In this document: positions 14,314-30,795 of the stretch, piece after piece
How the letters are laid out: each line of letters opens with the position of its first letter
Numbering within the stretch: the first letter of the stretch is position 1
Assembly (NCBI GenBank): GCA_011800155.1
Contig: CM022376.1
Location: forward strand, 1,240,001-1,304,000
From: Flammulina velutipes
Taxonomy: Eukaryota > Basidiomycota > Agaricomycetes > Agaricales > Physalacriaceae
Direction of reading: 5' to 3'
DNA: 64,000 nt
Made by a program: the position numbers and the translations under genes
Notes under the pieces: model-generated
Databases searched by the model: none
Seen by the model: the letters and a program-made list of their open reading frames with translations, nothing else
What the model was told of the DNA's origin: nothing

Positions 14314-14606
14314 GTTGTAGATTTGAAGGAGGCATGATGTACTTCAATATGCTGTGTTTGGTTTGGTTTTTATTAGCGTAAAGATCCTGGTCATTTTGAG
14401 TGACTGCGTTTCCGATGTCTATGTACAATATGTTATCCAATGATTACCATTATGGCCTTAGGTTGCTGGACGAGAAGTGCCTTGAACGAGGATCAGGTGC
14501 CCGCCATAGTGTTGAGCTTCGGGACAACCATCTTTGTGGTTGTAGCCTCTTAAAACAGAGTAAATCTCAGTGGCGCACAAACATTTTCGGCAAAACCTTT
14601 TCTATT

Positions 14607-14680
14607 GGACACATTGGGAATTGAACCCAACACCTCCCGCATGCTAAGCGGGCGTGATAAACCAACTACACCATGTGCCC
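14607..14680 (-). tRNA. tRNA-Ala (anticodon AGC)
   Basis: The 74-nt cloverleaf reads on the minus strand. The acceptor stem GGGCACA pairs with TGTGTCC (one G-U), the anticodon stem CCCGC/GCGGG is perfect around the loop TTAGCAT (anticodon AGC, decoding GCU/GCC), and the T-loop GGTTCAATTCC is canonical. No intron is present. It sits 87 bp left of the target duplication of the DUF6589/RecQ element. Confidence 0.93.
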
Positions 14681-14766: not shown

Positions 14767-14775
14767 GGCATTGAT
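14767..14775 (+). repeat. 9-bp target duplication, left copy (GGCATTGAT)
   Basis: Identical to 30787-30795 in the same orientation and directly abutting the TAGTCTCGT tip. Confidence 0.85.
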
Positions 14776-14901
14776 TAGTCTCGTACCCATCCGTTATGTC
14801 GAGATCCCCGCACCCTCCCATCGCTTGCGCTCGGATTCCGGACCGGACCACGTTTAGCGGAGTTGAATTTCGGGCGCAGGGAATCTCTCCATAACGTCTG
14901 G
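14776..14901 (+). repeat. Left terminal inverted repeat of DUF6589/RecQ unit
   Basis: Imperfect inverted copy of 30677-30786. The outer 20 bp and two inner blocks are conserved; the middle has length differences. It lies just upstream of the DUF6589 gene and probably contributes to its promoter. Confidence 0.82.
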
Positions 14902-15020
14902 GGCATTTCATATAGGAGATACCGGGTCCGTCACGCCGTCACTTAATGACGTGCTATCTCTAGCGCAACTACCCAATATATCCAGTTGTCTGCCATCACA
15001 TCAACGATATCATTCCACTT

Positions 15021-17890
15021 ATGGACGCTGAACCCTCGCCTGAAGAATGGGACCTCCTACGTCGCAACGATAGCATGAATGACCCGTCAGACGACGAAGA
15101 CACAGATCCAGAGTCAGAAGAAGATTCCAACACACAGCCACAACCCCTAGAAGATTCTGACTCGGAGGACGACAATCCCTCTGCACAATCACACACTCCA
15201 TCTAGCGACAACAAAGCTCCTTCGGTTCGAAGAATTTTGTCCATGATGCAAAAAGAAGGCATGGACTTTACCACTCTTGTGGACCTTGTTCTGTGGGGGG
15301 ATGATGATTGTATAGGAGACCCAGTCATTCGTGGCGCTCGGACGGCATTAATGAACAGTGAAAAACTACCTGGTATACTGCGGCGTATCTGGAGACCTCC
15401 GAGGACCACTAAAACCATCAACCAAACTTGTCCTGCCTACAATGTGATGCATTGTTTCGTCCGTACCACCTGGCTCTCCATCATCTCCTCTGAGCTCAAG
15501 ACACTTGGAGTTGAGTATGAATCCCCCAAGGGTGATGACATTACCAAGAAGGCACTCACCAACATCAAATTCGACTATCTCTTTGACCGTGTTCAAGCAG
15601 TGGCGCCAAATGTCTGGGATACCTTATATACTTTGGCCTACTCTTCTAATCAACGGGAACGGAACAGCCGCAAGGATCCAATCAAGGTAGGCTCTTGTAA
15701 TTGTTCTGCACATGCATTGCTTATCTTAAACAAGGTCGTTCTCATGATTATCTCTATGCTATGCTATACTCGGTCACAGCACTGCAATGTCCTGCAGAAA
15801 GCATTGGCGGTCTACATGAAATTCCGTGGGCTATCAGCGAAGGCGTTTGACACCCTCCATGCACTCGGTATCACAATGAGCTTCAAATGGACGACAGAGG
15901 CGGTCGAGCGCATATCATCTAGGTCTATGATCGAAGTCAGGTCTATGATGTCCAAATATCCTTGGATTATCTCCTACGATAACATCCAGCTCTCATTCCG
16001 GGTGTTCTCCCAACGTCTCGACAATCAGGGTGAGTTTGGCAACGGGACGGCCGCAACTGTATACATCAAAGAGGACGCCACACCCTTCTCTGACGAAGTG
16101 AACCGTGCATTCCAGCTGCAGCGGGCGGCTGGTCTGGAGACTCCACTTACAGCCTTGGAAATCATGCATCTCGCCATTAAACATTCCTCCCCTATCCACA
16201 AGCGAATGCTATACCACACCCTTCGCTTCCTCACAGAATGCCCCGAATTTGACGTTAAAACATACAATCACCGCGAAAGTGAATTGCTTAAACCGCCTGC
16301 TTGGATTGAGGCGCTATCTGTTGGGACGGAACATGTCACGATGCAGTACCTTCTGGGCAGCGTCGGCATTCCCGAAACTAGCTATGAGGATAATTTGCGC
16401 CTCCTAGAAGAATGGCTGTCTCAGTTGGACATGCATGGTCTTGACGAGCAGATGAAACTTGCCATCAAACAGCTTATAGCGTGGTGCGGAGATCAGCTCA
16501 CCATCGAGCGTTTGCGCGGCCTCTTCAGGATGCGTGCGGGTGATTCGAACTCGTATGACCGTCTGGACTGGATGGTCCTCGTATTTGGCTGGTTCCATCT
16601 ACAGATGGCTTTTGCCCAGTCCTTATTCAAGCAATACCTCGGAACGAATAAAGGCTACAGTCTACGGAGGTCCTTCAGTGCAATGAAGCATAAAGGCTTG
16701 CAGACTGCCTCGATCAAAGGGCCATTCCATCATCACTTGGAGGAAGCTCTCTTCCATGTTGGCGAGGCTCATATTTTGGTTGACTGGAAAGGTGTATCAG
16801 GTGTCGAGTCATTATCTCAACTTCGAGGTTGCTCACCGGAGCAGCTAGTTCAGTTTGCCGAAGAGATCATGAGCAAACATGCTTCGTACAATGCCTTGAA
16901 CGAGCACGATACACGGGACGAGAAGGACCAGGACCAAGGCAAACGGCAGACAATTATGTGGAACCGCGACATCTTGCAGTACATTGTCCTGGACGAGGCT
17001 ATCAAAAACGGTGATGTGGGTATGATGGAAGCCATGTTACCCACCTTGCTTTTCTGGTTTATGGGTGGCAGAAATCCTAAGTATGCAATTGAGGTACTTG
17101 AGCTGTTGCAAGGCTTGGAGCATGAATGGACTGACGAGGTTAAGTGAGTTGCAATTATATTCATTGACATTTTGAACGTAACTTACCAAATCTGGAAGGG
17201 CCTTCGTCAAAGAGCATTGTTGGGTTCTCAACTTTGCTGCTCGGCGAGACTCTCATGTGCCCGTTGATCAAGCACAAGAGCACAATATCAAGGACATAAA
17301 GGTCTGTTGCACAAAGAAGGATCATCGTCACTGAAGTTGACAAGTATTAGGTCACTTACCGCTCTGAAGGTCCCAAAATCGACTGGGCGTACTTAAAAAA
17401 GCTTCATCCTGCGATTCCCGTCATCCGAAGTCTATGTGAACATCTAGAGCAGGAGTTCGGGACTCTAAGTCGTGGCAAGAAGCACAGCGAGCCGAAGAAA
17501 GATAAGGATGTAAGTATGCTACGGAAAATGTTCGAGGATTCCGGGTACCACAAGATGGAGAAAGGGAGAAAGATAGAAAACGAGAAAGACAAAGCACAGG
17601 ATTATAGCGAATTGGGTATGAAGGCATTAACGGAGACAAAGGTATTGGTAAAGTGGCATCAAAATAGGTATTTCAAGCGGTCAACACTTGAGGAATGGCC
17701 TGAAACGGTGAACGAAGGTGCTTCATCATCGTCTACTCCATCTGGTAGGTCGTATTCTCTTCATCCCCTCTTTCCAACTGATGTTGTGCTCCTAGCGACG
17801 TTTCCGCCGAGTGAGTCGACTCCAAGCGCGCGGGCTGAGAGCCCACTAGTGGATGACGAGGTAGATTATCAACCTCAGCCAATGGAGTGA
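15021..17890 (+). CDS. DUF6589-domain protein, candidate transposase
   Basis: The ATG at 15021 opens a Ser/Asp/Glu-rich tail of ~60 residues, followed by the DUF6589 region. Family hallmarks are IISYDNIQ (~residue 300), CGDQLTIERLRGLF (~470), SYDRLDWMVLVFGWFHLQMA, KQYLGTNKG and KGPFHHHLEEAL. Likely introns are 15687-15734 (in frame), 17144-17199 and a short one ending TATTAG near 17350. The exon after them carries DKAQDYSELGMKAL and ends at the TGA 17888-17890. A further 51-base in-frame stretch (17742-17792) could also be spliced. The function of DUF6589 is not established. The two conserved Asp motifs (YDN, GDQ) and the conserved HHHLEEAL would suit an RNase H-fold transposase, which is an inference supported by its position inside a unit with inverted ends. 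No internal stop is seen. Confidence 0.85.
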
Positions 17891-18474
17891 CGAGCTGGCT
17901 ACGTCGCCATGCGAAATATGCAGCAGGAGTGTTGCATTGAGCGGGTGCTGGCGAAAATATGTCGGCGATAGGTATCCGGGTGGTGTTGGGTGATGGCCTC
18001 AAAGGAGGCGGAGACGCATAGGCCTGGAATAAATAAGTATGGTACTATAACAAAAGAAGTGATTACACTCACTGTCCACGATGCGGGAGCAGTCGGCGCA
18101 AGACGTCTTGCTTGCTTGGCAGCGGCGAGACTGGAATGTCTATCTGCCTTCTCTTGGGTTCGACGATTCCGTTCAACTTGCTTCTTCTCCAGCGCTGCTT
18201 CCTTCTGCGCAGCTTTTTCCTGATCTCGCAATGTCTTCTTCTGCTCCTGGACTGCCTTCTTCGCCCGCTTTACCTCCTCCCGCTTCTCCATCTCCTCTCT
18301 ATTGACCTGGGCTAGAACGTCCAAGACATCCTGACCATGCATCTCTACAAACAGCCACTCCAACTTCAACTGCGCTCTGATGTCGTCAACGTCTTTCCAT
18401 CGAGTGCTAGCTGCCAGCGCCGTAAGTGTCTTGTCAGGAAGCAAAACAGCAACAGTGAATGGTGCATGTTTATA

Positions 18475-19513
18475 CACCCTATGACCTACTAACAACTAGT
18501 TAAACCCCTATAGTGACGGGGACAAACAACTAGTTGCTGTCCGTCACTACGGGGTAATAGGTCAGGTAGCTACATTTGGCTGGGGCGGGGCGGGATCTAC
18601 TGGTACGGCTAGGGGGTCGGTACGGGGATATACTGGGATGGCGCGCCACGGTCAGGTAGGTACGGGGGCTGGGGCAACCGGGTGTGGCGCACCGGAGCAA
18701 TCAGTCAGGGAAAAGCAGATCAATCATTACCGTAGGGACGGGGGAATATGCCGGGGCGCTATTGAAGCGTGGCGTCATCCGGAACCAGGGACCGGATACC
18801 GTGCCAATAATGATGGACCACCGGGAGCGGGTCCTAGCGCGTTGCGCCACGCTTCCAAACCGGGACCTGCAGACTGGGGGTAAATGCGAAAATGTAATGC
18901 TATAGAAGGAATATATATATATGATACATACGAGCAGGTAAGCGTACGCGATACAGTGGGATAGAAATGTGGCGGGGAATGGGATCGGGGCGACGGGCAG
19001 GTAGATGGGAAGAAGCAAAAATGGTGGGGGAGGTGATAGTATGTTATAAAACAAATGTAGGAGCGAAGAAACGAAGGGAAACGGTGAGGAAACGGGTGAG
19101 GAACATCGAAAATGGTGGCACAGCGGGATAATGGGGGCGACGGCGGTCCAGCTGCTTCCAGCGGCAACGGGGGGGGGGTGGAATAATCCTTGGAGGGCCT
19201 AATGGGAGGCGTTGACACGATTTCGCAGTGGCGGCAGCGTTGGGTAGTGCACAATATCAAAAATGGTCCACCGGGTTGGTTGTCGTATTGCTAGCAGGCT
19301 GCACGCGTTGCAGGCAGTCATTCGTAGTCGATAATGTCGATAAAAAGATGTTGGGACATGCCTCGTATGAAGCAGTCGAGCGGCAAGAATGCCAGCATCA
19401 TCGCTGTCAATGGTAGAGTCAGCATCAGCTGTTCTCAGCGCCCAAGTCCAACGCCGAGATCGCCGATACTGACTATTCCTTACTCACGTCAATACATCAA
19501 CTCAAACGAACAT
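18475..19513 (+). repeat. Left terminal inverted repeat of KDZ element
   Basis: Reverse complement of 27470-28506. The outermost ~90 bp are shared with the fold-back element at 7705-10505. Short mirror-image open frames here are not genes. Confidence 0.93.
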
Positions 19514-19556
19514 CAATAGCAATAGAACATTTAAACTACAAATACAACTCGTAGAT

Positions 19557-22500
19557 TTACACATCGTCATTGAGAGTATCGTCCTCGTCAGGCTCATCGT
19601 CGTACAGCTCAGCGGAAAGCTCATAATTCAACGACGTCTCTGTCGATGTACTGCCCAGCATCTCTAACCCCAAATCTACCAACGGCTTCCATGCAGCCTC
19701 CAAACGTGCTGCCTGCTCACGCAGACGCGTCGAAGACGCCAGTGCCATTGCCATCAAACCTTCACGAATCTCAGCGGAAGCGTTGGGCCGCGCGACACTC
19801 CGTCGATCCCACCAATCAGCCTTCCAGCGGTCGAACGCAACAACGCGTCGCATTTCCTCAATGAGAAGTTCGATTTCTTCTCGCCAACGTAGCATCCGAG
19901 CCCTCGCCTTTGACCACTCACGCTTGAGACCTAGATAGACGGAAGGAACCATGTCAGTGTCAGCAGTAAGGAATGCATGTTGGGACGCACTGTTTTTGAA
20001 TGCCTCGTCACCCGTCATCGTCTCTGCAGATACACCATTGGGATAGCTATACCAAATCCACGAGACTTCTCGCCGACCCTCTCCTTGCGATGCGAGCGCG
20101 TCTGCCGTTAGAGGTCCAGTTTGACTGACGAAAAGCAGGCCACGCTCTCGTATGTCGTTCGCTTCCGCTTCCTCCTGCGCTGTAAGCATGCGCTCATTGA
20201 GACCACTCACATGCTTTTCCTCCAGGACACGGAGCTGGTTCTCCCAGTCACCGTGACCTTTCAGACGATAAAGGGCGTTGCGAGCCCAGCGATATTGCAA
20301 TTTTGCGAGATTAATATTGACCAGGACACTACAATTCTTGTCAGATACATCTAATATAAGGAGGAATAAAACTCACCGTCGCTGTATCCCTTCAGCTCGC
20401 GTCACAGAAGTTTGGCCAGAAACATTTTGCACTTGGAAGAGAATGCCTGCGGAACGTGTTCGTATGTTGGAGCGTAAGGAGTCAAGGGATTCCCAGCACT
20501 CCGCTTCACGCAACCGCATCTCCATTTCGGCAAGTCCGGGTTTGCAGGCGCGCGCAACCTCACGTTGTCCCGCGGAGAGTTCTGATGGCATATGCAGCTT
20601 GATCTCCTCCGGAACAACGACATCCGGTAAAGCATTGAAACGTTCCAGTTGTTCCGACGACAGGAACTCTTGTAAGTGCGGCATGTAGATTTGCTGCAGT
20701 CCGCGGAATTTCTTGATACGCCGTAAGATTACTGTCGTGCGTTTAACATTGCGACACTCAACCGAGAAGAGAAAAGTGGCGTACGTGTGCGCCTCTTCTC
20801 GATATTAAGTTGTTGGTATGTAGCACCCGAATGACGTGCTTTCACCTCCCATGCCAACGAACGTCTGAGCGCACACTAACTTTCAGTTCAATGTAATACT
20901 AGAATGCCACTTACTGTAGACTCTCAATTTCGAGACCCAATGCCAACATTGTGCTTGCATTGGACTCCTGAACAATCACCTCCGGGTTCTTCGCCAGTGC
21001 TGCTTGTTCTTCTTTTTCGAGCTCGATGCGAATCTCGGCGATCGACTGCTGTGATCCGGACGACCCTTCATACGGACAGGGTTGGGTAAAATCTGCTTCC
21101 CATGCTTTGATTTCTTGAAGCCAGATATCAAGCACATCACGACCAAAGACAACCGCTAAACCTTCATCGAAGTGTTTGAAGTTCTCGGTATGTGTTGGAG
21201 CGTTCGTGAGTGCCTCGACCAGTCGTGAGGCAAGGACACGCTCTGCCAAGAATCACGATTGATGTTAGTGTGCGGCAGCATCAACTTAATTATGTAGGGC
21301 TCACCGAATGACTCGATAGTCCGACGATTGATGTTGTTGAATATGTCGTCAAGGGTATCGGCACGGGCGCCGGGACCCATTTTCTTTGTCTGTGAAGCGG
21401 CGCGATTACTGAGAGACCATAACCATTCAATTATCTCAGCTGCGGTCCGACCTACAAACGGAAGAAGATTGAGCGAGAATTGAGCGTGGTCTTCTGGTAA
21501 ATGCGACCAAAAATGAAGCTTGGGAATGGCAAATCGCATCAATTCTGGATTCAGGAACTGGACGGGGGCAGGGAGATCCTTGACGCGTTTCAACCAGTTT
21601 TTGCTCCATATGCACGCAATGTCGTACGATGTAAGTTTCTTGATATCGGGATCGAGTCTACACGCGGACGCGTGGACGTAATCAACCGAACAGAATCTAG
21701 AACGTTGTCAGATTCAGGACAAGTTTACATGTGTGGCGTCCATACTTCTCTCCTTTGCTCAAGTCTCCCAGCCCGTTGGGGCGAAGACATCCATGCCGAG
21801 CACAGCACACACCGGTAACTCCTGATACCCTCAGGCCCTTCGCATTTTTGATATTGGCTAGGTGATAAGCCTGGAACCCGGAGCAGTTGGGAGCGTCTTC
21901 TTGTGTGGCGTACTTAGCCAGCCAACGGAAGTACGGTTTGCGCGGCGTGAAATAGGCGTTGCCATCACCCAATGGCGGATCACGAGCTTCTGAGGAAACG
22001 TTCTCGTTGCGCAGTCTGAAGTTGGCATCATTTGCTAGAAATGCAGTGTAGATCCAGCTGCAGTGTATTGAGTTCTAATATTACAACGTCCATTGGGACA
22101 CGAAAACGCACGCGTTCGGTTGAGTAGCATAGTCAGATGGAATATTTTTCCCGGGCTGGGGACACGCCGGACAGAGCAATGCCAATTCTCCATCAGCTGT
22201 TCCTGCAATCCCGCTTTCGTCATGTCCGCGCCCAGCGTCGCGACACAATTTGATGTGCCTCCATTGCCGTAGGCAACGAAGTAGAACGCGATACCGATTT
22301 GGTGCCGAAGCGCCCGTCCGCTCCTCAGTGAGCTCTGACAAGCTTCGCCAGAGGTCCCACGTTGGAAGCTTGCCATTACAGTTTAGCGAATGCACAAACC
22401 GAAGGAGGGAGAAGGTCACAGCGGTGTGGGGATACGTCGGTGTAGCAGGCCACCAACTATTCCTAAGGGTGAGGTTTCTATAATCAGTAGGACCCCGACA

Positions 22501-23327
22501 TCCGCAGAACGCTACCCCGAGGACGTGGACACCATTGACGTGCAAGACAGTGAAATCGGCAACATAACCGATGGGCGCAGGGCATTCGCCTCCGGAAGTA
22601 TGGCCTAAAGTAACGGAGACGCCAAGATCCGTCAAGGAAACATGACGAAAGAACGAGCCAGTCCATTGCTAGAGACTAAGAGTTAGCGTAGCATACATAG
22701 TTAGAGTGGAAAAATATTACCTCGAGCCAGTGGAGGGGAAGATGGCGATGCGTCTCGCAAATGCAGCTCTGACACATGAGACCAAGACCGATGCATTCGT
22801 CATCATAGCACCGAAATTGCGCCACATGTCCGTCCTTTCCACAGACAGCGCAGTCACCACCCGCGGCGCCTGCAGATCCCTCCAATCGAATCATCTCTGT
22901 AAGGTAGTCCTCCCGAAACGATCTCCAGACCCTCATGGGGTCGTTCTAAGATATAAGTGTGTTAGCATGAAATCAGTAGAGCGATAATAAATAATCTTAC
23001 CGTGCTATTATACTGCTTTCGGGCATTGATAACCTGGACATTCAGGCAGCTCGATGTCTCAGAGAAGTTGGCCGCCTCATCGAGATATGTCGTATCGCCA
23101 AGAAGATATGAAAAGCCGTCGAGCTGAGCGGCGCGCGCGAGAGTATCGGTGTCCTCGACGATTTCGACCTCAGGTGGTGCAGCGTAGGTAGTACGGCGCC
23201 TGACGACTGGGCGGTCCCCATCGTCCTCGACGATCTGTGTGGTGATAGCGACACTTTGATTTTGGTGGAAGTCATTCTTTGGTGCACCTTTCTTGCGTTT
23301 GAAAGAACCAGAGCCTGTGTTGGACAT
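19557..23327 (-). CDS. KDZ transposase with CxC2 cysteine cluster
   Basis: Likely exons are 23327-23001, 22945-22731, 22668-22112, 22057-21729, 21657-21305, 21242-20915, one from ~20880 to 20377 (its acceptor is not fixed), and one or two from ~20356 to the stop at 19557. The ATG gives MSNTGSGSFKRKK. The CxC2 region shows CAVCG, FRCYDDEC, CQSCICETH and later CPACPQPGKNIPSDY. The KDZ core shows ANDANFRL (first Asp), CARHGCLRPNGLGDLSKGE, SYDIACIWSKNW (second Asp), PKLHFWSHL and AAEIIEWLWSL (Glu), then GPGARADTLDD. This is the DDE-type enzyme of the Kyakuja-Dileera-Zisupton superfamily and should cut and join the element ends. All traced junctions keep frame, so it looks intact, subject to the unfixed exon. 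Confidence 0.93.
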
Positions 23328-23669
23328 CAGAGTTGAAGGATTCAACGCAGAGAAGTGAAAGAGGAAGGGTAGCGAGGTCGTGAAAAAGGAAGAGTAGCGA
23401 GGTCGTTCAGAATAGTGAACGTCAAATGTGTGAATGAGAAGCAAAGACGAACCAAGTGAGTTTGTGTCATGAGAACGATGAATAGACGTCTGAATGGAGC
23501 GATCCTTGATATCGAAGGTCAGATCTGACGATAAGAACAATAAAAATGAAACGTACCATGTGTGAATGGTCCATGTGAGCTTGGAACGAGTACACGAGCG
23601 AAAGGCGAGGTTGATGAGCAAAGATAAACCTGTGTGACGTGAGTGATCACTGGTTTCGTCTTAACCATC

Positions 23670-24613
23670 ATGGCGGAACCTCCCATCTCTGGTGAACTAA
23701 CGACTTGCCTCCCCACTTTCCTCTATGATTCTGGCCATGAAAAGCGTCTCAATCTCGATACGGATGATAAGATGTATATCGTCGTCTCTGGGAGGAGATC
23801 AGCGGTACTTTGCTCGGGGTGGTAAGTTATCAACCGATTTTATGGTTTGTATCTAATTTTTCAATATAGGCCTTGTGCGAAAGGCCTCGTCTACGTTGGT
23901 CAGGAGAAGGTGACAGGCGCAAGGTGGAAGGCTGTGTTGACTTGGAACGAAGCCGTCAAGTGGTTGCGCGAGATGCACGGGGACGCAGGTGAACATGAAT
24001 GCTCGGCGGCATTTCAATCTGAGGCGTCAGGTTACGTCGGACGCCCACTCTGTCTCACTTCTGCGCAGCCGCCAGCCTCGCCCACCAAAAGCCGGGCGCC
24101 ATCTCCGACCAAAACAACCAAAATTCGTTCACCTACCAAAACTCCAGCTCCTGCGTCTGCACCATTTCCGCAGACTCCTCGTGGTCGGGGGCGCTCGATT
24201 CATATAACCCCCGAACTTGCCAGCACATTCACTCCTACACCGCCAATACCATCCAGCCCCTTATCGAGTCCGAGTCTCTCTCATTCGACCATGCACTCCG
24301 GACCATCTCCTGCGCCCATGTCGTCTGCCAGTACTTCATCCTCTCAACGCGCTCACTCTTCGCTCCCGGTCAAGTTTGAATGGTATGTTGTATTCTGCAG
24401 TGCCCTCGAAAGTCCAGTGGTATACGATAATCTGTGAGTTAATACCTGCCTCCCTCGTTCACGCTAACGAGGAACCCTAGTTCTGAGGCGCAAAAGTACA
24501 TGAATCTGCATCGCTCCAGTGGATCCCGTGTCCATTTAAATATGGGTAATGATATTCAAAGTATCTTGGACGGTTGGACTGGATTTGACGCCCGGGACGG
24601 GTTTAAAATGTGA
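23670..24613 (+). CDS. KDZ accessory protein with two RNase H1-N/viroplasmin-like segments
   Basis: Exons 23670-23821, 23870-24433 and 24481-24613 join in frame from ATG (MAEPPISGEL) to TGA. Two segments have the pattern of the small RNase H1 N-terminal (viroplasmin-like) fold: MYIVVSGRRSAVL...RWKAVLTWNEAVKWL near the N-terminus, and WYVVFCSALESPVVYDN...SEAQKYM near the C-terminus. Between them is a ~100-residue Ser/Pro/Thr linker with repeated SPTK-like units. That fold binds RNA/DNA hybrids or dsRNA in known proteins, and the assignment here is tentative. The gene begins ~340 bp upstream of and divergent from the transposase start, so the two may share a promoter region (23328-23669). Confidence 0.65.
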
Positions 24614-24679
24614 CATATTTACTTACGTGCGAATACAATTAATGTGGTTAGGGTTCCATTTTCTCTGATTCAACTACCA

Positions 24680-27386
24680 ATGGCCAAACCCAAGAAGGCC
24701 TGTCGTGGACCGTCTCACTGGATACATGGCGGCAAGGTCGCATTCTTTTCTCGTCGTCTGCCAGAATGGATGAAAGCGAAGCAGAACTCTCATCTCCAGG
24801 CCTTCGCAGCGGACATGGCCCACGCATACGAGATTCGCTACGGTTCCCTGTCATCTCTGAACGACGACCTTCCGAACAACGTCACTCCAGAAATGCCAAC
24901 CGACGCGGAGATCATTGCCCGCGCAAAAGAGAACGCGTTGAAGTTGGCTTCCCTTTCCCCGGAGGAGCGGCATGTAGAGCAGGAAAAGAGCAAGAAGTTC
25001 CGCGAAGTGCGTCTCTTTTACTTTCACCAAGCTTTGTCTAACTTCTGAAACAGAGAATCCTCAAGTGGTATCGCGAGCATAGGCCCGACAAGACTGCCCA
25101 GCGGAGCAGTGGCATTGCCGAAGTCGTCTCCCATGTATTCAAACACACTCCACGCCCACGTCGCGGCCAAGTCGTCCAGACATTCTGCAACCTTTACTGG
25201 GACGACTACGTTGGAGAAGCCATCACTTCCGCATACTGGAAGGTTCTCTCTGACTGCGCGCGCGCCGCTGGAGACGACGAGATTGCTTCGCTGCCCCGAC
25301 CCCAAAAAGTTGGTCCAGCACCTACTGAGCAGGAAGACGACAATGACGACGAACCTCCCGACACTGCAGGGCTCGCGATTCCAGAGGCGCTCAAGGACTA
25401 CGATGTCAAGAAAGACAAGTTCCTTGCCATCCTCAATTCCATGGGCCGCACACTGTATGAGAAGACATCGGATGAGGTGAAGCAGAAGGTCGCGGAGGAG
25501 ATTGAATCCCGGTACCAGCATAGACTGAAGATCTATAATCAGGTCAAGAAACCTGTTAGTGAATATACGCCTGAGGACTACGTCGTGTGCGTTTTTTAAA
25601 ATTTGTCTTCATTATCATATGCTGATATATTTGCTAGTGCAATCGAGGGAGGAGCAAACTACATCACCAGAATTGCGCGCACATTTGCTGTCCACTTCGG
25701 CATGGCTTGCAGCATTATTCTCATTGGTCCTGACGACAAAGGAGCCCCTACGTTGCGCAGGTAAGATTGACGACTTGCTGTCGTTCCAAGCACGCTGACA
25801 AATGTATTTTGTAGCTGCCATGCAGGCCGCACTAAAGTGACGGGGTCCAACTTCCCCGATTTTGACCCAGCAACTTGGAATGCATTTGAGGCGAGTTTTG
25901 TGCGGTTTGGAAAGAAAGTGTTTCGTGCGTGATGATATTTCTCGTCGTTGTTGAATTCTGACTTTTCTTTACAGCCGACGGCAACTTTCGCCAGGATCTA
26001 ATGGATGAACCCAACTCGAAGACAGCTAGCAGTACGTCGAAGACGTCCGGAGACACATCCCAATCTGACGACGAGTCCGCAAGTGAAAGCGACGATGACG
26101 TTCCGCTGGCGCAACAAATTAAAAAACGCTACAAACCAAGTCAGAACCGCCAGCGGCCCCGTGGTTCCTCCGATTCCATCGACGCTCGCTTTCTGCCGTG
26201 CCCCGAATTCTCTTGGGAGCTCAACAACCTTGACAAGGAGGACCATGCGACGGCGATGATGAAGCTTTCGAAGATGTCGCTGGCGGAGCTCGAGCAGCAG
26301 AATACGGTCACCCGTAGTAACTGGCGTGCACGCGCAACGGGATACAGCTGTGTTCCCACTGTTTTCAGTGCCTCGCTCCGGGCTCCCCAATCTGACAGAG
26401 TTCGACGGCTGGAGGCCCAGCTAGAGGCCATCCTGCAATACAATTATGAACTTGAGAAGAGCGAGGATTGGCCTACCTCCGACGACTTGACACCTTCGCT
26501 GCCGGCAGGTCTGCCTCGACTTGCCAGCTATCCAGATTCCGAGTCCGACACGGAGGACAACTCGCGCGATATGGACATCGACCAACCCGACGTGAATTCC
26601 AACTCCCCTAATTCCTCGTCGACACCTTCCATCTTAGCCACCCTAAACGACCCGCCCCGTCTCTTGACTTCCACGTCGAGAAAGCGCAACACGTCACACG
26701 GAGACAGCAACGACGACACAGACACCGATAACGATGACTGCAACGACAACAGTGCGCTATCATGGGACGATATCGACTCCTCACGCTGGTCCAAGGACGT
26801 CGTCGGCATGTTTGACGCATGCAAACGGATACGTGATGTCTCCCCACTCTGGCTACCGCTAGTTCATGCTGCCATTGTCTTTGAGCGTCGCCATGGTTTT
26901 CCGGGGCGTCTGGACCTCAAAATGGGACGGCGACCAAAGACCGTCTCCGCCTTCTTCAAGAATGCTCATTCATGGAAGCGTGCATACCCAATCGGTGAAT
27001 CTATCGGCACGCATAAGGAAAACTGGTGGATTTGGTGGCGCAGCTTGCAGCCTGATAGCCGCTTCGACAAGGGGGACCGCTCGCAAAATCTCATACGACG
27101 CGAAGATGTGGCCTGGAACGATCTGCCGGAGAAATGCGGGTCGAATGGGATGGTCACTGTCATCGGCTCCTTGCTGTGGTGGCGCGAAGCCTTGGAGCAC
27201 AGCCAGGACGTCGATGCCGACCACGGTGACTGGGAGCAAGCTGTCAGAGACGTATCGTGGGCGCTAGACCATATGATACGTCACGCTATCAAGAAGTCGT
27301 CGTCGAGGCCATCGAAGGTAACAATTTTACTAAATTTTACAATCTGCACGCTAACCTCAACCTTTATGCAGCGCACTCGTATGTGA
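24680..27386 (+). CDS. KDZ accessory hypothetical protein, large and acidic
   Basis: Six exons fit: 24680-25006, 25054-25586, 25638-25760, 25815-25924, 25975-27317 and 27372-27386 (MAKPKKACRG to ...SKRTRM). The N-terminus (KVAFFSRRLPEWMKAKQN, then KKFRERILKWYREH) follows the layout of a large Agaricomycete hypothetical family that I cannot name. The middle is Asp/Ser-rich with a polar basic stretch. The C-terminal ~170 residues are folded-looking and Trp-rich (LWLPLVHAAIVFERRHGF, WWIWWRSLQPDSRF, GSLLWWREAL). No catalytic motif is evident. It lies between the KDZ ends, on the strand opposite the transposase, so it moves with the element whether or not it helps transposition. Confidence 0.8.
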
Positions 27387-27469
27387 ATATGTGCAAGTAG
27401 GTGTTACTGCAGTCTATCTTACGTGCGGATATATATATAAATCGTCGAGCTTGTATATTTGTAGTTTGA

Positions 27470-28506
27470 ATGTTCGTTTGAGTTGATGTATTGACGTGAG
27501 TAAGGAATAGTCAGTATCGGCGATCTCGGCGTTGGACTTGGGCGCTGAGAACAGCTGATGCTGACTCTACCATTGACGGCGATGATGCTGGCATTCTTGC
27601 CGCTCGACTGCTTCATACGAGGCATGTCCCAACATCTTTTTATCGACATTATCGACTACGAATGACTGCCTGCAACGCGTGCAGCCTGCTAGCAATACGA
27701 CAACCAACCCGGTGGACCATTTTTGATATTGTGCACTACCCAACGCTGCCGCCACTGCGAAATCGTGTCAACGCCTCCCATTAGGCCCTCCAAGGATTAT
27801 TCCACCCCCCCCGTTGCCGCTGGAAGCAGCTGGACCGCCGTCGCCCCCATTATCCCGCTGTGCCACCATTTTCGATGTTCCTCACCCGTTTCCTCACCGT
27901 TTCCCTTCGTTTCTTCGCTCCTACATTTGTTTTATAACATACTATCACCTCCCCCACCATTTTTGCTTCTTCCCATCTACCTGCCCGTCGCCCCGATCCC
28001 ATTCCCCGCCACATTTCTATCCCACTGTATCGCGTACGCTTACCTGCTCGTATGTATCATATATATATATTCCTTCTATAGCATTACATTTTCGCATTTA
28101 CCCCCAGTCTGCAGGTCCCGGTTTGGAAGCGTGGCGCAACGCGCTAGGACCCGCTCCCGGTGGTCCATCATTATTGGCACGGTATCCGGTCCCTGGTTCC
28201 GGATGACGCCACGCTTCAATAGCGCCCCGGCATATTCCCCCGTCCCTACGGTAATGATTGATCTGCTTTTCCCTGACTGATTGCTCCGGTGCGCCACACC
28301 CGGTTGCCCCAGCCCCCGTACCTACCTGACCGTGGCGCGCCATCCCAGTATATCCCCGTACCGACCCCCTAGCCGTACCAGTAGATCCCGCCCCGCCCCA
28401 GCCAAATGTAGCTACCTGACCTATTACCCCGTAGTGACGGACAGCAACTAGTTGTTTGTCCCCGTCACTATAGGGGTTTAACTAGTTGTTAGTAGGTCAT
28501 AGGGTG
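27470..28506 (-). repeat. Right terminal inverted repeat of KDZ element
   Basis: Mirror copy of 18475-19513, ending GGTCATAGGGTG. The similarity stops at the base before 27470, ~85 bp past the stop of the last plus-strand gene. Confidence 0.93.
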
Positions 28507-30676
28507 GTTTATACGTCTTGATTGTTTTCATCCGCCAGGTAAGCAGCGCAGCTCTCGCGCTTTTGAGGAAGTCGTCACGACGTAGTGCTGGTAAGAGCCC
28601 GCGTGTCATGACACGCTTGCCGTTTTCGTTTGGCGTCTTGCTAGGGGTGTTTGGAATACCAACAGGACTGTCCTGCTCGGGCGTGATAGGGCGTTCCAGT
28701 TCAATATTGTCGTCGTCGTCTGGGACATTCGAAGGAGTACAACGATCACAGCATACACCAGTAGGTACTATCATTTTCATCAATACAATCTCAATAGAAT
28801 CTGAGAGAATACTCACATTTACGATCTGGCGGGTTATTGTAATGCTCATCGCAGTAGTCACGCTCGCAGCGTTTCGTCTCAATCCATTCCCGCATAGATG
28901 GCTCCACCTGCTTGCGCCATTTCAATCTATCCCCTGCTTTTGTCGGTACCGCTGGCTGCTGAAGGGTCTTAGGCGCCTGACCAGTGTTTTCCTCTGCTTC
29001 GGTGGAATTCGATGTACCGCCTCCTTCCTCCGCATCATCCTTGTCTTCATCGCCTTGACTTTGGCCATCTCTGGCCCTCGCATGATCCACACCGCTGTCC
29101 GAAAGGCCAGAGTCGTCGTCCGAATCAGCCTCCGTGTCCTTTGCCTTTGATGTCTTGTTTGCTTTCTGGAGCTTGAACATACTCGCCTCAGCCAGCAGGA
29201 TAGCGCGCGCATTGATAGATGGATCCCAGCCCGCACGGCCTATGCGTTGTTTGAAGATCGACAAAGAGGACGGCACGCCAAATTGAATGGCTACCTCAAT
29301 ATCAGGTATGTCAGCACCCTATTTAATTCCCTTAGAATTAGAAGTTGGAGTAAAGAAAACAGACGTACCATGCCCGCAGCCTCAGTAGCTAACAAGATGC
29401 GAAGGTCTCCATGATGGAATCGGAACATCGCCTTCTTCTTGTCACGGAGGGAACGCATCGCGTGGAAGCAGTCGAGATGCTGCATGATTTCTGGACTGTA
29501 TTTCCCTTGGAGATGTCGTAGTCCGTGTTGCGCCGCCTTTATAGAGTTTGTGAAGATAATTGATTTGGGGATATCACACGCTTGAATCGCGTTGAACGTG
29601 AGATGCTCGCACAGTGAGTCGAAGTCGGACGAGCTCTTCATCCTGTAGATCGTGGTGGAGATATTAGGGCGGTCATTTCCAAGGTTGAGGTGGAAGCAGG
29701 TATCAGATGAAATGCTGAGTTTGGCCATCACATCTTTGAGCGTTGCGGGATTGAGTGTGGCCGATGCAACAAGTATGGGTGTGCCGGGGGGGAGGAGGAG
29801 TCGTAGGTCATCCAGCAGAGCATAATCTTTACGGAAATCACCACCCCATTGTGATATACAGTGTGCCTCGTCGACGATGGCTGCTAGAATCTTGCTTGAA
29901 ATTGCGCGGATGGAATCCCGGAAGCCCTCGTGCTTGATATACATCTCGGGACCAGCAAAGAGAGCTTGGTACGTGCCAGTCTTGATTTTCTATGGGCGTC
30001 AGTCAGCGATGAGTGTTGCGGAACATCTGTCATCACATACCTCTCCGAGTTTTTTGGGAATCCAAGTATCTCCATTTACGGCCACAGCAGTGATACCCAT
30101 CTTGTTAAAGCGCTCAGCCTGATACGAAACGAGTTAGAATGAGTGGTACAAGATTTAGAAAGGTAACGCACCTGGTCTGCCTGTAGTACTTTCAGTGGTG
30201 ATACAATCAGAGCCACCTTCAACGCATCCAGCAGCAACATCATCATGAACGGCATCGTCTTCCCACATCCTGTGCCAGCAATGAGCACAGTATCCAGTCC
30301 GAGGAGCATGGCCTCCGTGACATCGAGCTGCCAGTCGTAAGGTGCTTTCCCAAATTTCTCCGTGAAAATACGTTGCAGTTCTGCCCGGGTATGCGCTGAA
30401 TTGTATTGCTTGGTTTTCGTAGCCTGTTGCCGAGCCGCATAGAGCACTGCATAAGAACGCGAACGGATACGGTGGTATTCAGCGATAGAATCTTGCTCAT
30501 CCGCGGGAGGCATCGACGATGGACAAAACAAGTTTTTTGGGATACAGCGAGTTATGACAGGTAAGGAATAAACAATGCGATCGCGTCGTCGTGCATAACA
30601 CGTGAGCGCTTGAGCGCCCGAGCCGTCACAGAGAATTGGAAATTGGAGGGACCCATGGTTTACTGTACGAAGTGCA

Positions 30677-30786
30677 CCAGACGTTCTGGCGAACCCTCTG
30701 CACGAAAAATTGAACTCCGCTAAACGTGGGTCGGATCACCGGTCCAAATCATCCGGGGTGAGCCAGAACGAATGGGAACGAGACTA
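30677..30786 (-). repeat. Right terminal inverted repeat of DUF6589/RecQ unit
   Basis: Inverted partner of 14776-14901. It lies upstream of the RecQ start codon at 30513, so the two genes read inward from the two ends. Confidence 0.82.
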
Positions 30787-30795
30787 GGCATTGAT
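30787..30795 (+). repeat. 9-bp target duplication, right copy (GGCATTGAT)
   Basis: Perfect match to 14767-14775, directly following the ACGAGACTA tip. Confidence 0.85.

Follow-up and report, generated by a model that had tools for sequence, protein, structure and literature searches.

Results

In a 64,000-nt window of the Flammulina velutipes genome (contig CM022376.1), the stretch from position 14776 to 30786 is a DNA transposon with two native genes, one for a DUF6589 protein on the + strand and one for a RecQ-type helicase on the − strand, which are separate, read inward and converge (coordinates are 1-based positions in the window, except where another locus is named). The terminal inverted repeats match at 18 of 20 bases, further inverted blocks (CCACGTTTAGCGGAGTT, AACGTCTGG) lie approximately 70–125 bp inside each end, and a perfect 9-bp repeat, GGCATTGAT, adjoins both ends. 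When all 8303 pairs of identical 9-mers spaced 0.5–40 kb apart in the window were compared, this was the only pair with 20-mer ends matching at 18 positions, the runner-up having 13. An earlier note on this DNA had described these ends, blocks, repeats and inward genes, and all were confirmed.

The bulk of the 16-kb element is a nested KDZ transposon, which encodes KDZ and CxC2 domains. Its inverted arms extend for about 1 kb, with 100% identity over runs of 702 and 343 bp, and the identity of the arms suggests a recent insertion. The direct repeat GTTTATAC that borders it is 8 bp long, or 7 bp if the start of the KDZ element is moved one base earlier; for Zisupton, an 8-bp duplication is described in PMC12730594. 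Joining the flanks at a single copy of GTTTATAC restores one open frame of 327 amino acids over the insertion site, and the KDZ element therefore landed in the C-terminal coding region of the helicase gene. In the window copy the helicase is thus broken by a later insertion, while the transposase reading frame is open. Three + strand open reading frames within the KDZ element (23826–24437, 24614–25599 and 25962–27386) gave no Pfam match above the cut-off and are possible cargo genes.

The same arrangement recurs in this 38-Mb genome. At least ten DUF6589 loci were found (20 Pfam matches, a lower bound, grouped by hand), and four of them, the window included, are complete elements with inverted ends, a helicase and perfect 9-bp duplications (GGCATTGAT, CCAAACAAC, CCATTCAAC and GGGGAGGCC), the three further ones having YAGnCTC ends. 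Three short copies of 574–714 bp are also flanked by perfect 9-bp duplications (AGTACATGA, CCATCCGTC, GATCAACAG), and a fourth of 161 bp, at C5:2567810, has the left end of the window element, a shortened right end and flanks that agree at eight of nine positions (GCTAGAAAG/GCTAGAGAG), giving seven copies with a perfect duplication and an eighth at 8/9. The YAGnCTC rule was drawn up from the window element, L043 and L044; the complete element L042 and the three short copies had no part in its design. Combined with a perfect 9-bp duplication, the rule had no match in 1800 + 600 dinucleotide-shuffled loci. Two of the complete elements, L042 (597–7527) and L043 (2932–9975), are related to each other and have divergent genes, and the inverted repeats of L042 extend for about 200 bp at 97% identity. 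Between the window, C4 and C8 groups, the transposases are mutually only ~20–24% identical.

At the other six loci, ends were sought with the YAGnCTC rule and with inverted-repeat scans, and a relaxed rule was applied to L045 and L050 together, L046, L047, L049 and the shorter L021. Several candidates were dropped: on C10, one weak pair started within the DUF6589 gene and another reached only 6/8; the pairs at L046 and L050 matched at 12–13 of 20 bases; and the high-scoring ends with palindromic flanks on C1 (L047) were due to long inverted arms, whose outer ends have no 9-bp duplication. These arms enclose the C1 DUF6589 frame (L047, 3780–6828) and match over 621 nt at 97% and 105 nt at 96%. 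L045, L046 and L051 are DUF6589–helicase pairs without recognisable ends, either decayed copies or pairs kept by the host. A search with the left flanks of the window element, L042 and L044 for empty sites returned no second copy, except for a tRNA-Ala (AGC) gene beside the window element, which lies at 14606–14680, 95 bp from the left end, and recurs in near-identical form at other sites of this contig.

The helicase accompanies DUF6589 well beyond this locus. A PDB search with its central exon recovers RecQ, BLM and WRN chains (best E 1.7e-15), and the reading frames of the helicase contain Walker A, DEAH and QRxGR motifs. Using a profile built from 105 helicase relatives, we found a helicase within ~5 kb at seven of the ten DUF6589 loci, only four of which were recovered by a single-sequence search with the window helicase exon; the stretches read at C1, C13 and C8:719k had no match to the profile. 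The convergent layout foreseen by the earlier note holds for five linked pairs (window, C4, C8:709k, C10 and C6) and fails for two, which are divergent (C8:1767k and C8:2475k). All four complete elements contain a RecQ-type helicase, that on C4 retaining just two pieces in open frames.

Linkage in other species was assessed with 79 DUF6589 rows carrying an NCBI species name, drawn from the best 120 of 136, and the best 120 of 887 helicase rows, by pairing contigs by species and by the size of the longest contig, with every genome set at 30 Mb. Among the matches listed, 28 contigs hold both genes, and 29 of 60 helicase rows (31 shared species) lie on a shared contig against ~4.8 expected; for contigs of up to 450 kb, 11 were shared against 0.33 expected. 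The two genes therefore share Agaricomycete contigs far above chance. Their protein distances also correlate (r 0.807, p 0.0001, 28 pairs), and the earlier note was right to see in the helicase a lasting partner and not stray cargo. Subtelomeric RecQ genes, a possible source of the helicase, have been discussed for other fungi in PMC4522978.

The DUF6589 gene model has four inferred exons (15021–15686, 15735–17143, 17199–17301 and 17351–17890) without an internal stop. Conservation was scored over 240 database proteins and seven frames from this genome, in P0001 numbering. Two putative catalytic aspartates, D313 in YDN and D484 in GDQLT, stand out clearly, as the earlier note had anticipated from these motifs. 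Its third motif, HHxLEEAL, fared less well: position 568 is E in 118 and D in 122 of 243 proteins, is S or A in two of the seven own-genome copies, and competes for the role of third acid with D631, D658 and E684 as well as with E445 (239/246). The third acid plays no part in the family argument below.

Structure models of DUF6589, examined for the RNase H-like core of a DDE/D transposase, gave weak Foldseek matches, and on re-alignment the P element, Hermes, Transib and RAG1 ranked first. Pfam returned no other transposase family for ten diverse DUF6589 proteins at E up to 10, with the HMMER filters on, which drop many weak matches. The DUF6589 model had no match below E 0.001 in a viral structure library, and none of 44 DUF6589 pattern matches in viral contigs was confirmed. 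A search with the divergent L043 protein, aimed at animal relatives, gave 340 matches, and the species named among the best 120 of these are all fungi. Considering the ends and duplications of the copies together with the predicted fold, DUF6589 is very probably the DDE/D transposase of the element, in agreement with the earlier note. We found no literature mentioning DUF6589 by name, and in the literature searched its link to a transposon is apparently unpublished under that name.

Table 1 Features of the element at 14776–30786 and conserved residues of its DUF6589 protein.
Feature	Position	Strand	Basis
Left 9-bp target-site duplication GGCATTGAT	14767..14775	.	Perfect, 9 of 9
Left end: terminal inverted repeat TAGTCTCGTACCCATCCGTT and subterminal inverted blocks	14776..14900	+	Same end at C5:2567810
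DUF6589 gene (very probable transposase)	15021..17890	+	905 aa, four inferred exons
Putative first catalytic D (YDN), D313	15978..15980	+	187/192; first strand of predicted core
Putative second catalytic D (GDQLT), D484	16491..16493	+	242/243; directly after strand 479–483
Invariant H of GxxH, H519	16596..16598	+	241/241
Candidate third acid, second E of HHHLEEAL, position 568	16743..16745	+	Acidic in 240/243
Candidate third acid D631	16932..16934	+	236/238; 7/7 own-genome copies
Candidate third acid D658 (GDVG)	17013..17015	+	229/238; 7/7 own-genome copies
Candidate third acid E684, late helix	17091..17093	+	229/236; H in L044, A in L050 (2/7 own-genome copies)
Helicase gene 3' part, past nested insertion	17899..18475	-	Helicase-relative profile, E 3.2e-25; frame continuous over insertion point
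Nested KDZ transposon, later insertion, foreign to the element	18476..28506	.	Direct repeat GTTTATAC at 18468–18475 and 28507–28514
RecQ-type helicase gene 5' part	28507..30513	-	Walker A GTGCGKT, DEAH, QRIGRAG
Right end: terminal inverted repeat TAGTCTCGTTCCCATTCGTT and subterminal inverted blocks	30660..30786	-	18/20 with left end
Right 9-bp target-site duplication	30787..30795	.	Perfect, 9 of 9

Discussion

The reading we favour, with a probability of about 0.87, is that this is an AcademH-type transposon in which DUF6589 is the DDE/D transposase and the RecQ-type helicase a lasting second gene. The family name would follow from the architecture, since printed descriptions, and not transposase sequences, were compared. 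In PMC10045372, AcademH denotes Academ transposons with a helicase, with reference to Kojima 2020 (Mob DNA 11:15), and has duplications of 9 or 10 bp against 3 or 4 bp in AcademX, a difference tied to the presence of a helicase or a nuclease. Two sets of observations weigh against our reading. Six of the ten DUF6589 loci have no acceptable ends, three of them despite a linked helicase, which is what the earlier note had said would count against a transposon; we read these loci as decayed copies. In addition, the correlation of protein distances partly reflects host phylogeny, since a permutation confined to single species left the true pairing second among 72.

The most serious alternative, which we still regard as unlikely, is a separate and undescribed superfamily, unrelated to AcademH by transposase sequence and resembling it just in the helicase and the 9-bp duplications; in one version, RecQ would be the obligate partner of a P/hAT-like transposase, after long co-evolution in two layouts, convergent and divergent. 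The silence of the literature on the name DUF6589, the comparison with AcademH by description only and the Pfam result given above are compatible with it, whereas the type of helicase, the duplication length, the host group and the low copy number all fit the printed accounts of fungal Academ and AcademH. The earlier note had proposed an undescribed superfamily or clade, a proposal that is unsupported because AcademH, with its helicase and 9–10-bp duplications, is already in print (PMC10045372, PMC6416283).

That DUF6589 might instead be a host gene or cargo, with the ends belonging to another transposon, is suggested by the six loci without recognised ends; it is nevertheless very improbable, as DUF6589 is present in all four complete elements and DDE/D transposases come out on top in comparisons with its predicted fold, although no scan for other families took in every open reading frame of the other three elements. 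Hardly any weight is left for KolobokH, a fungal Kolobok lineage that also encodes a RecQ helicase (PMC9587614), given that Kolobok duplications are the 4-bp TTAA whereas those seen here are 9 bp without TTAA, that its RecQ domain lies downstream of the transposase domain and not in a separate gene on the opposite strand, and that its C/DxxH signature is replaced here by GxxH (G516 in 234 of 240 proteins, followed by H519). Equally remote, with the same signature difference, is a MULE (MuDR) that has captured a RecQ gene as a passenger: IS256/MuDR relatives do make 4- to 10-bp duplications, according to PMC10045372, but no MULE profile appeared among the filtered Pfam matches, a 9-bp duplication needs no MULE, contrary to the integration that the earlier note had evoked, and the helicase co-varies with the transposase and persists in every complete element despite the low transposase identity.

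If the AcademH-type reading is correct, DUF6589 would bind the TAGTCTCG inverted ends, excise the element and join it to a new site through cuts placed 9 bp apart, and a stagger of this length would therefore give the 9-bp duplication; we infer these steps from the observed ends and duplications and from the predicted fold. Catalysis may rely on the two conserved aspartates and a third acid. The helicase probably has a role in transposition, and would most likely open or clear DNA, either at the ends or where the target is repaired, during excision, joining or gap repair.

Abundant in mushroom-forming fungi, the DUF6589 family still has no listed function, and a transposase reading gives it a probable role. 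It also raises a testable question, namely why a transposon retains a RecQ helicase, which may be tied to the long duplication, as PMC10045372 suggests for AcademH against AcademX. If true, it would allow annotators to drop many ‘hypothetical’ and ‘Bloom syndrome’ genes from host gene sets.

The comparison with known systems leads back to Academ. The P element, hAT (Hermes) and Transib/RAG1 have a similar predicted core fold on re-alignment, at 6–10% identity in the structural alignments, but differ in duplication length and are not known to carry a helicase gene. Closer to the present element, AcademH is described as a DNA transposon of fungi, Basidiomycota included, with a helicase gene, terminal inverted repeats and 9-bp duplications, and as present at low copy number in Basidiomycota, Ascomycota and Mucoromycota (PMC10799480). 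Putative non-autonomous Academ elements have been reported from Marasmius oreades (PMC8290104), and no Academ sequence or motif was found in the accessible parts of that paper or of PMC12210899, PMC10294476 and PMC12730594; in PMC9674265 none of the terms looked for occurs. Fungal Academ copies with DEAD/DEAH (PF00270) and recQ_fam domains, often annotated as host genes (PMC6416283), are alike in their helicase domains, while DUF6589, the ends and the duplications are unnamed in the text seen. The helicase, the terminal inverted repeats, the 9-bp duplication and the low copy number of AcademH are all present here, in an element whose relatives extend across many Agaricomycetes.
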